Origin: Aeromicrobium sp.
Lineage (GTDB): Bacteria > Actinomycetota > Actinomycetes > Propionibacteriales > Nocardioidaceae
Reading direction: 5' to 3'
Length of the DNA stretch: 33,193 nt
Assembly (NCBI GenBank): GCA_025965435.1
Contig: JAOPWZ010000059.1
Span: 1 to 33,193 of the forward strand
Shown: in pieces, positions 4,694-30,782 of the stretch
How positions within the stretch are numbered: position 1 is the first letter of the stretch
Layout: each line of letters starts with the position of its first letter
Notes under the pieces: model-generated
Database searches by the model: none
Told to the model about the DNA's origin: nothing
The model's input: only the letters and a program-made list of their open reading frames with translations
Program-made: the position numbers and the translations under genes

Positions 4694-5812
<1,119 letters not shown>

Positions 5813-5822
5813 CCCCGTCCCG

Positions 5823-5921
5823 CGAGTGGTGCACAGGTCCCCGCGAGTGGTGCAAGTCCGGCATTCCGAGACGGCGAGTCGTCCGAACTTGCACCACTCG
5901 CCGGGAGGATTGCACCACTCG
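5823..5921. repeat. Nested inverted-repeat element between convergent genes (outer arms CGAGTGGTGCA/TGCACCACTCG; inner hairpin 5844-5900)
   Basis: Inner arms CGAGTGGTGCAAGT (5844-5857) and ACTTGCACCACTCG (5887-5900) are exact reverse complements; outer arms 5823-5833 and 5911-5921; loop contains GAGACGGCG. Confidence 0.85.
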
Positions 5922-5925
5922 CGAG

Positions 5926-6444
5926 CTAGCCGACGACCGTTCCGGCGCGGTGCTGGTCGCGGTGGTGGGCGTAGATCTCGGCGTTGCGGTGCAGCTTGTC
6001 GACCTCGGCATCGCTGAGCTCACGGCGCACCTTCGCCGGCACGCCGGCCACCAGCGATCGCGGCGGGACGACCATGCCCTCGGTGACCAGGGCGCCGGCG
6101 GCGATCAGCGACTCCGCGCCGATGACCGCGCCGTTCATGATCGTGGAGCTCATGCCGACCAGCACGTGGTCGCCGACCGTTGCGCCGTGGACGACCGCGC
6201 CGTGACCGACGGACACGCCGGTCCCCAGCAGGACGGGCTTGCCCTTGTCGACGTGGAAGACGCAGTTGTCCTGCACGTTCGAGTCGGCACCGATCGTGAT
6301 CGGCTCGTTGTCGGCGCGCAGCACTGCTCCGTACCAGATGCTCGCGCCCTCACCGATCACGACGGCGCCGACGAGGGTGGCGGACGGGGCGATCCAGGCG
6401 GAGTCCGCCACCTGGGGGGTCAGGTCTTCGAGGGCGATCAGCAT
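5926..6444 (-). CDS. Gamma carbonic anhydrase family / left-handed beta-helix hexapeptide protein
   Basis: ATLVGAVVIGEGASIWYGAVLRADNEPITIGADSNVQDNCVFHVDKGKPVLLGTGVSVGHGAVVHGATVGDHVLVGMSSTIMNGA is typical of the family. Confidence 0.9.
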   Translation of the reverse strand: MLIALEDLTPQVADSAWIAPSATLVGAVVIGEGASIWYGAVLRADNEPITIGADSNVQDNCVFHVDKGKPVLLGTGVSVGHGAVVHGATVGDHVLVGMSSTIMNGAVIGAESLIAAGALVTEGMVVPPRSLVAGVPAKVRRELSDAEVDKLHRNAEIYAHHRDQHRAGTVVG

Positions 6445-28576: not shown

Positions 28577-29416
28577 ATGAGCGAACGTGTCGTGCGGCCC
28601 ATCGAGGACGGGGTCGCGACGGATCTGCGCGACGAGCTGACCTATGCCGGCTACCTGCAGCTGCCGACGTTGCTCGCGGCGCAGCAGCCGATCTCCGACC
28701 ACCACGACGAGATGCTGTTCATCGTCCAGCACCAGGTCACCGAGCTGTGGCTCAAGCAGCTCATCCACGAGCTGCGGTCCGCGATCGACCTCGTCACGCA
28801 CGACGACCTCCCGCCCGCGCTCAAGCGGCTGGCCCGGGTCAAGGCGATCCAGCGCCAGATGTTCGAGCAGTGGTCGGTGCTGGAGACCCTGACCCCGGTC
28901 GAGTACGTCCAGTTCCGCGACGTGCTCGGCAAGGCGTCGGGCTTCCAGTCGCCCCAGTACCGCACCGTGGAGTTCCTGCTCGGCAACAAGAACCCGCAGA
29001 TGATCGCCGTCTTCGCCCACGACCGGGCCCTGCACGACGCCCTGCTCGCCGACCTGGAGGCGCCGAGCCTGTACGACGCCTTCCTGCGGTACCTGGCCCG
29101 ACGTGGCCACGACCTTCCGGCCGACGTCCTCGAGCGGGACGTCTCCCAGCCGTACGCGGCCCATCCCGGCGTGACCGAGGCGCTGCGCCGGATCTACGCG
29201 GACCCGGCGACGCACTGGGACGCGTACGAGATGTGCGAGGAGCTCGTCGACGTCGAGGAGAGCTTCCAGCTGTGGCGCTTCCGGCACCTCAAGACCGTCG
29301 AGCGGATCATCGGCTTCAAACGGGGCACGGGCGGGTCGTCGGGCGTCCACTTCCTGCAGAAGGCCCTCGACCTGACGTTCTTCCCCGAGCTGCTGGACGT
29401 CCGCACCCAGCTCTGA
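28577..29416 (+). CDS. kynA: Tryptophan 2,3-dioxygenase
   Basis: [46 protein letters not shown]...[19 protein letters not shown]...[18 protein letters not shown]. Confidence 0.95.
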
Positions 29417-29445: not shown

Positions 29446-29501
29446 CGAGTGGTGCGTGGTGGACGAATGAGACGGCGTGTCGGTCCAGGACGCACCACTC
29501 G
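29446..29501. repeat. Second copy of the convergent-intergenic hairpin element
   Basis: CGAGTGGTGC (29446-29455) and GCACCACTCG (29492-29501) enclosing GAGACGGCG. Confidence 0.85.
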
Positions 29502-29512
29502 GGGGCGGCTGG

Positions 29513-30082
29513 TCACCGTCCGGGCGCGGCCGGACGGTCGTCGACGTCGCGGCCCGCGGCCAGGTCCGAGCACCCGACCAGCGTCACCTCGTGCCGGACC
29601 AGGTAGTCGCGGGCTCCCCGGTCGGCGGTCGCCGCGGCGGCCGCCCCGGCCCAGTGGGCGCGCCCGATGAGCACCGGATGGCCGGGCCCATTCCCGTAGT
29701 CGGCCCGCGCGAGGCTCGCCGGCGCAGCCACCCGTACGAGGCGGCGCACGACGTCCGGGCCGACGTCGGGCAGGTCCACGAGGTGCACCATCGCGGCGTC
29801 GACGTCCAGGTCCGCGACGGCCGTCAGCCCCGCGCCCAGCGACGCTCCCATGCCGCTGGCCCACGCGACGGCCTCGACGACCACCGCGCGGTCGTCGAGC
29901 AGCTCGACCACCGCGTCGCGCGCGGCGCCGACGACCACGACGACCGGATCGCATCCGCCCTCGCGCAGCACGCGCACCGACCGGACCACCCAGGCCTCGC
30001 CGTCGGTCTCGGCCAGCGCCTTGGGACCCCCGAACCGCTCGCCGGAGCCCGCCGCGAGCAGCAGTCCGACGACACCAGGCAC
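29513..30082 (-). CDS. MobA-like nucleotidyltransferase (molybdenum cofactor NTP transferase family)
   Basis: VPGVVGLLLAAGSGERFGGPKALAETDGE...MVHLVDLPDVGPDVVRRLV...GHPVLIGRAHW; GTG start 30082. Confidence 0.8.
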   Translation of the reverse strand: MPGVVGLLLAAGSGERFGGPKALAETDGEAWVVRSVRVLREGGCDPVVVVVGAARDAVVELLDDRAVVVEAVAWASGMGASLGAGLTAVADLDVDAAMVHLVDLPDVGPDVVRRLVRVAAPASLARADYGNGPGHPVLIGRAHWAGAAAAATADRGARDYLVRHEVTLVGCSDLAAGRDVDDRPAAPGR

Positions 30083-30119
30083 CGCCCCAGTGTGCCCGGT
30101 GTCGCGCGGCCCCGTCCGG

Positions 30120-30782
30120 TCAGCGCCGCATGACCTTGCGGGCGGCGGCATTGCCGGCGAACTGGCCGATCTGCACGATCAGGATGACGAGCAGGATCGC
30201 GACCGCTGTGACGGTCCAGTCGAACTGCTTGAGGCCGTACGTCAGCGCGACCTTGCCGAGGCTGTCGGCGCCGACGACACCCACGATCGCGGTCATGTCG
30301 ACGATCGCGACGAGGGCGTACGTGAACCCGAGGATCAACGGGCCCAGGGCCTCCGGCAGCAGCACGCTCCAGATCACCCGCCAGCGGCTCGCGCCCATCG
30401 CGCGGGCCGCCTCGAGCACGCCGGGGTCCACCGCGACCAGGTTCTGCTCCACGATGCGCGAGATCCCGAAGGCCGAGGCGAACACGATCGCGACCAGGGC
30501 GTGCCCGTTGCCGATGCCCGAGATCCCGAAGTACCGCGAGATCGGCTGCAGGGCGATCGCGAGCAGGATGAACGGGATCGGTCGCATGAAGTTGACCAGG
30601 ACGTTGAGCACGACGCTGACGGGCCGGCTCGGGACGATCCCCCGCTGACGGGAGACGTACAGGCCGGTGCCGATGATCAGGCCGAGCAGCCCGCCGATCA
30701 CCAGGCCCGCCCCCGCGAGCCACAGCGTGGCCCAGAGGCCCTCGGCGAACTCCGAGCGGAGCTCCCACACGCGGTCCATCAC
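30120..30782 (-). CDS. metI: Methionine ABC transporter permease
   Basis: MetI-like TM pattern with MGASRWRVIWSVLLPEALGPLILGFTYALVAIVDMTAIVGVVGADSLGK. Confidence 0.9.
   Translation of the reverse strand: MMDRVWELRSEFAEGLWATLWLAGAGLVIGGLLGLIIGTGLYVSRQRGIVPSRPVSVVLNVLVNFMRPIPFILLAIALQPISRYFGISGIGNGHALVAIVFASAFGISRIVEQNLVAVDPGVLEAARAMGASRWRVIWSVLLPEALGPLILGFTYALVAIVDMTAIVGVVGADSLGKVALTYGLKQFDWTVTAVAILLVILIVQIGQFAGNAAARKVMRR

Follow-up and report, generated by a model that had tools for sequence, protein, structure and literature searches.

The hairpin element that lies directly behind serC in an Aeromicrobium genome belongs to a genuine family of palindromes that are dispersed over intergenic regions and REP-like in habit, and it is, in our view, probably a non-autonomous mobile palindrome of 57 bp that is partnered by a dedicated nuclease gene. 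Here, we describe the element and its family, the nuclease gene that such palindromes bracket in related genomes and the matching of palindrome and nuclease types, and then weigh the other explanations that have to be considered for them.

The window, that is, the whole stretch of 33,193 nucleotides that was analysed, comes from a metagenome-assembled genome (MAG; G000) of 2.15 Mb and 59% completeness, and contains two copies of the element (Table 1). Copy 1, the longest inverted repeat reported for the window, was confirmed from the sequence to be built as first described, with four CGAGTGGTGCA-type arms around one core and an equal step of 21 bp between inner and outer arms on the left and on the right. 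Copy 2 is related to it, as had also been claimed: the two have their arm tips and core motif in common, and both are flanked by a convergent gene pair. The differences between them arise because they belong to different subfamilies (TGCA vs TGCG). Elsewhere in the MAG, a second serC fragment (G000:C76:3445-4284) is 77% identical and represents either a paralog or contamination.

Table 1. Features of the two hairpin copies in the window and of their neighbouring genes
Feature	Positions	Strand	Remarks
serC	4706..5812	+	TIGR01366; stop codon 10 bp before copy 1 outer left arm
Outer left arm of copy 1, CGAGTGGTGCA	5823..5833	+	21 bp outside inner arm
Copy 1, 57-bp palindromic unit, type TGCA	5844..5900	+	79.9 bits with model R1
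Inner left arm of copy 1, CGAGTGGTGCA	5844..5854	+	
Core of copy 1, GAGACGGCGAGTCG	5868..5881	+	conserved, non-palindromic; gives the element its orientation
Inner right arm of copy 1, complement of CGAGTGGTGCA	5890..5900	-	
Outer right arm of copy 1, complement of CGAGTGGTGCA	5911..5921	-	21 bp outside inner right arm
Gamma-carbonic-anhydrase-like hexapeptide protein	5926..6444	-	convergent to serC; best NCBIfam match under cut-off
Tryptophan 2,3-dioxygenase (tdo)	28592..29416	+	TIGR03036; upstream neighbour of copy 2
Copy 2, 56-bp unit, type TGCG, arms CGAGTGGTGCG/CGCACCACTCG, inner TGGAC/GTCC	29446..29501	+	65.7 bits
Core of copy 2, GAGACGGCGTGTCG	29469..29482	+	
MobA-like NTP transferase	29513..30151	-	PF12804; convergent neighbour of copy 2

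Further copies outside the window, which had been expected of a genuine family, are present in numbers not due to chance: G000 contains at least 16, counted with a covariance model (61 columns) and then read as sequence stretches. The family unit is a 57-bp palindrome with arms CGAGTGGYGCR and core GRGACGGCGTGTC, mostly accompanied by an extra arm 21 bp outside. Among the 16 copies from G000, the arms are invariant and the asymmetric columns of the core almost invariant; an outer right arm is found in 13 of them and an outer left arm in five, and the step is always 21 bp. With the covariance model, the 57-bp family was detected in 21 of 59 relatives, all from one genus, which is identified as Aeromicrobium by its named members, and dozens of copies occur in these relatives; weaker matches were obtained in nine further genera (250 genomes of the same bacterial family sampled), match counts throughout taking in both strands of each palindrome. 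The copies have diverged from one another, which indicates that the activity behind them is old or slow.

In several Aeromicrobium genomes, palindromes of the same type form inward-facing pairs that are approximately 1.1 kb apart, and most of these pairs enclose a gene of low coding score for a protein of ~330 aa. The protein is composed of an AbiEi-like N-terminus and a DUF559/Vsr-like nuclease domain (PD-(D/E)XK/EDxHD): it matches the AbiEi_1 profile as well as AbiEi models in PADLOC (down to 1.4e-9), and has a weak match to DUF559. Its AlphaFold (AF2) model is confident (pLDDT 92.4), and the fold nearest to the nuclease part is that of the homing endonuclease I-Bth0305I (3r3p; probability 1.00, TM 0.65 on the target, Foldseek E 3.4e-2), with a further resemblance to R2 endonucleases; as E-values, all Foldseek matches are weak (best 8e-3). 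The AbiEi-like assignment rests on the profile hits because a model of the N-terminal half alone is useless (pLDDT 40). NCBIfam holds no family for the nuclease, an HMM search of solved structures gave nothing significant, and the enzyme belongs to none of the known transposase classes. The bracketing holds, as far as contigs allow, in all 12 of the 12 Aeromicrobium genomes that have a close homolog, including three homologs whose flanking hairpins have a differing core. The gene was missed by the sequence-only reading because it lies outside the window, in sister species. Some inward-facing pairs enclose other genes, for example a GNAT gene between glmM and coaA, which is bracketed in both G000 (L032, 3571-4716) and Aeromicrobium endophyticum (G033; L099) by hairpins of differing types.

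The nuclease and the palindromes also occur together. Close homologs of the nuclease, as found by profile search, are present in 12 of the 16 genomes with at least five hairpin matches vs none of the 21 below that number (Fisher p = 1e-6, without correction for phylogeny), and three genomes (G009, G011 and G007) have many hairpins and no close nuclease. No nuclease gene was seen in the 59% of the genome that the G000 MAG covers; rpsF, the favoured site of the gene, is missing from it as well, which fits an incomplete assembly, and the nuclease gene of this organism probably lies in the missing 41%. Where two nucleases coexist, the palindromes are of two types: in A. endophyticum one nuclease is flanked by CGCA-type and the other by TGCG-type palindromes, and the dispersed copies comprise 21 CGCA, 16 TGCG and two mixed elements. 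A second genome, G008, likewise encodes two nucleases, and their flanking types pair with those of A. endophyticum. The distance between left and right hairpins is 0.153 within a locus vs 0.343 between loci. Nuclease and hairpin distances are correlated within the clade that shares the core (r = 0.38, p = 0.002; 13 loci, chosen post hoc), and no significant correlation was obtained over all 17 loci (Mantel, r = 0.09, p = 0.22).

The association extends well beyond Aeromicrobium. When 85,462 species genomes were scanned, 80 nuclease loci were obtained, distributed over Aeromicrobium, Nocardioides, Cellulomonas, Geodermatophilaceae, Microlunatus, Arthrobacter and others, and many of them have lineage-specific palindromes of ~55-62 bp. 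When left and right flanks were matched with a score of at least 14, this was reached by 36 of 78 own pairs, 8 of 400 mispaired flanks and 1 of 80 other (background) genes; the mispaired set includes loci of one genus, from which several of the eight matches may come. In a genome from another family of the order (G037), three relatives of the nuclease are flanked by other palindromes, and the CGAGTGCTGA type is found there as 11 dispersed, exact 57-bp copies (control 0). Exact 58-bp TCGACGGTTCC palindromes are present in four Arthrobacter genomes, with 4, 7, 2 and 3 copies (control 0), and the CGAGTGCTGA and TCGACGGTTCC palindromes each also flank the nuclease of their own lineage. One region of G037 (G037:C1:67131-67571) contains three CGAGTGCTGA palindromes within 440 bp, adjoining GCAACTGCGG palindromes of another type. 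Within Aeromicrobium itself, more distant DUF559 paralogs (L118-L134) have palindromes of ~57-61 bp on one or both sides, with sequences such as AGATGTGGNCAC... and ACGATTCGGAACGTCATCGCCC....

In nine species, the whole hairpin-nuclease-hairpin unit occupies the interval between rpsF and a conserved gene; in G070 these two genes are adjacent, with no unit between them and a neighbour that is 71% identical; no target-site duplication could be read, as the flanks are too diverged. In the model that we propose, the AbiEi-like part of the enzyme would read the arms, of which each palindrome has two, so that the protein would probably act as a dimer on a site of ~57 bp. AbiEi antitoxins bind inverted repeats (PMC11062541), and I-Bth0305I forms a dimer on its target, which is nearly 60 bp long (PMC3943268). 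The nuclease would then nick or cut in or close to the core, and the palindrome and, rarely, the entire hairpin-gene-hairpin unit would be spread by repair or copying. Gaps just behind stop codons would be the targets, because insertion may be least harmful there and a transcribed hairpin tolerated.

The nuclease fold could be read in another way, namely that the nuclease gene is a selfish, free-standing homing endonuclease gene, that the flanking palindromes are its own operator or target sites, subject to an AbiEi-like autoregulation, and that the solo palindromes are relics of former units that have lost the gene. I-Bth0305I is indeed the best recognised nuclease fold, AbiEi proteins repress via inverted repeats (PMC11062541) and the nucleases of G012 and G036 are frameshifted, but solo palindromes greatly outnumber the units (dozens vs one or two per genome), occur singly in short gaps, with no gene remnant in the gaps that were read, and consist of one palindrome, whereas the units hold two that face each other. 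We therefore regard this explanation as unlikely and retain that of a mobile palindrome with a nuclease partner.

The palindromes have a positional bias, which is to lie just behind a stop codon in a fixed orientation: most elements are located 5-50 bp 3' of the stop codon, and in co-directional gaps the single-arm end faces the stop codon in 25 cases vs 5 (p = 3e-4). The preference for convergent gaps that had been suspected from the two window copies proved not to be the rule, although such gaps are common, as the 54 classified copies from three genomes are divided between 22 convergent, 30 co-directional and 2 divergent gaps. A strictly convergent-gap element is not supported by these counts. 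With regard to individual sites, no other species with a readable serC gap has copy 1 there, and most orthologous gaps are without such an element. The site 3' of tdo contains a TGCG element common to G000, G033 and G068, a CGCA element in the opposite orientation in G008, another type in G029 and, in G071, a palindrome resembling that of a second nuclease, found in a related MAG (L179); in other species it is empty. This distribution suggests that favoured sites have received insertions repeatedly; copy 1 would be an insertion specific to its lineage and copy 2 would represent a second, older subfamily. In other species, the gap downstream of serC contains unrelated hairpin repeats, for example GGCGGTGCGCTGGCGTCCA, GAGTGTGACGTTTGGC and TTGAGCTTGTCGAAAGGACGTC (gaps L262, L276, L288, L270 and L272 in G008, G022, G036, G035 and G006, respectively), and looks like a hot spot for several hairpin families. 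Another favoured site is the neighbourhood of the HMG-CoA lyase gene, where elements or the nuclease unit, of differing types, are found in three Aeromicrobium genomes (L097, L179 and L021).

The strand of copy 1 folds at -73.6 kcal/mol, a stability that none of 200 shuffles reached (z = -8.35), and the sequence-only reading had taken the covarying inner stem as a sign of selection on a folded DNA or RNA form. This does not hold within G000, where the paired percentage and the covariation score of the 16 copies equal those of shuffles and the positions 13-47, 14-46, 16-44 and 17-43 fail to pair in 9-10 of the 16. Over 93 copies from 11 species the covariation score is 0.292 vs 0.146 in shuffles; the excess is gone within types TGCG and TGCA and remains only in type CGCA, which itself brings together several species and sub-types of the inner stem, and is thus mostly a difference between subfamilies. 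An explanation by RNA structure is accordingly rejected within G000, and the pattern points to DNA arms that are read by a protein, more than to a structured RNA. A search of the window with Rfam 15 at the gathering score returned 0 matches.

Selection by the host could nevertheless act on the palindromes in other ways, as bidirectional terminators, stabilisers of mRNA 3' ends or protein-bound chromosome sites, the nuclease being either incidental or a regulator that uses them. The very stable hairpin of copy 1 and the oriented placement, nearly always within ~50 bp of a stop codon, would be in keeping with such domestication. On the other side, no U-tract terminator, that is, a GC-rich hairpin followed by a run of T, was found at copy 1, which also tells against the bidirectional terminator family put forward initially; moreover, compensatory changes are absent within the G000 family, and about half of the Aeromicrobium species sampled lack the palindromes, as do most orthologous gaps. 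Host domestication thus seems to us decidedly improbable.

As to what moves the palindromes, the initial suggestion of a REP/BIME-like family stands with respect to dispersed, REP-like palindromes and fails with respect to the enzyme and the end tag. A linked RAYT/TnpA_REP gene, which had been envisaged, was found in none of the 16 hairpin-rich genomes tested (Y1_Tnp, PF01797; controls positive), and at the ends of the aligned copies no GTAG tetranucleotide was present, the ends being CGAGTGG/CCACTCG; a REP/BIME system with RAYT is ruled out on both grounds. Passive hitchhiking, in which a classical IS or a RAYT transposase moves the palindromes and the nuclease is cargo, has a precedent in the dispersed palindromes that RAYT moves elsewhere (PMC8266576), but given the lack of Y1_Tnp in the 16 genomes and a bracketed gene that is always of the same nuclease family, even with unrelated palindromes, it is very improbable, and its RAYT version is largely refuted.

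The best reading, by analogy, is that the nuclease and its palindromes work like a REPtron without being one, as a REPtron-like system based on a PD-(D/E)XK/EDxHD nuclease. In common with the REP/REPIN-RAYT 'REPtron' (PMC8266576, PMC3733652), it has short, dispersed intergenic palindromes, a DNA-processing partner gene flanked by them (by analogy only, since the nuclease replaces RAYT), one palindrome class per partner gene and several systems per genome. It differs in the enzyme, which is an AbiEi-like/DUF559 nuclease and not an HUH tyrosine transposase, and in the repeat, whose 57-bp unit has long conserved arms together with extra ones 21 bp outside, whereas a REP is a palindrome of 20-40 bp with GTAG (or CGTC) at one end. 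The EDxHD/Vsr-like homing endonuclease I-Bth0305I has a seemingly similar nuclease fold and a dimer target of nearly 60 bp (PMC3943268), near the length of the 57-bp palindromes, but the nuclease described here lies outside any intron or intein, has an AbiEi-like N-terminus and is linked to dispersed palindromes. A gene of ~1 kb between inverted ends together with short non-autonomous copies is reminiscent of insertion sequences and MITEs, except that each end is a complete palindrome that also exists alone and that there is no DDE or HUH transposase. Lastly, the N-terminal homology and the binding of inverted repeats by known AbiEi proteins recall the AbiEi antitoxins of type IV toxin-antitoxin systems, in contrast to which the AbiEi-like part is here fused to a nuclease, and no AbiEii toxin gene was noticed next to it.

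Proteins with DUF559 are annotated as being of unknown function; tying this subfamily to dispersed palindromes of matching type provides it with a role that can be tested and at the same time accounts for a set of hairpins between actinobacterial genes. Palindromes that have a partner gene were already known; the AbiEi-DUF559 enzyme class was not found in that role in the open-access papers in PMC, where searches on DUF559 together with palindromes, on REP-associated endonucleases and on REPtrons returned nothing about the present association. Natural specificity variants are available in the form of enzyme/site pairs, such as the two types within one A. endophyticum genome. We see an even chance that these systems make up a broad, undescribed actinobacterial class of mobile palindromes that are driven by AbiEi-DUF559 nucleases, in which the arms and the specificity of the enzyme evolve together and the REP/RAYT lifestyle was invented independently. 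If this is true, they would constitute a second, unrelated enzyme solution to that lifestyle.
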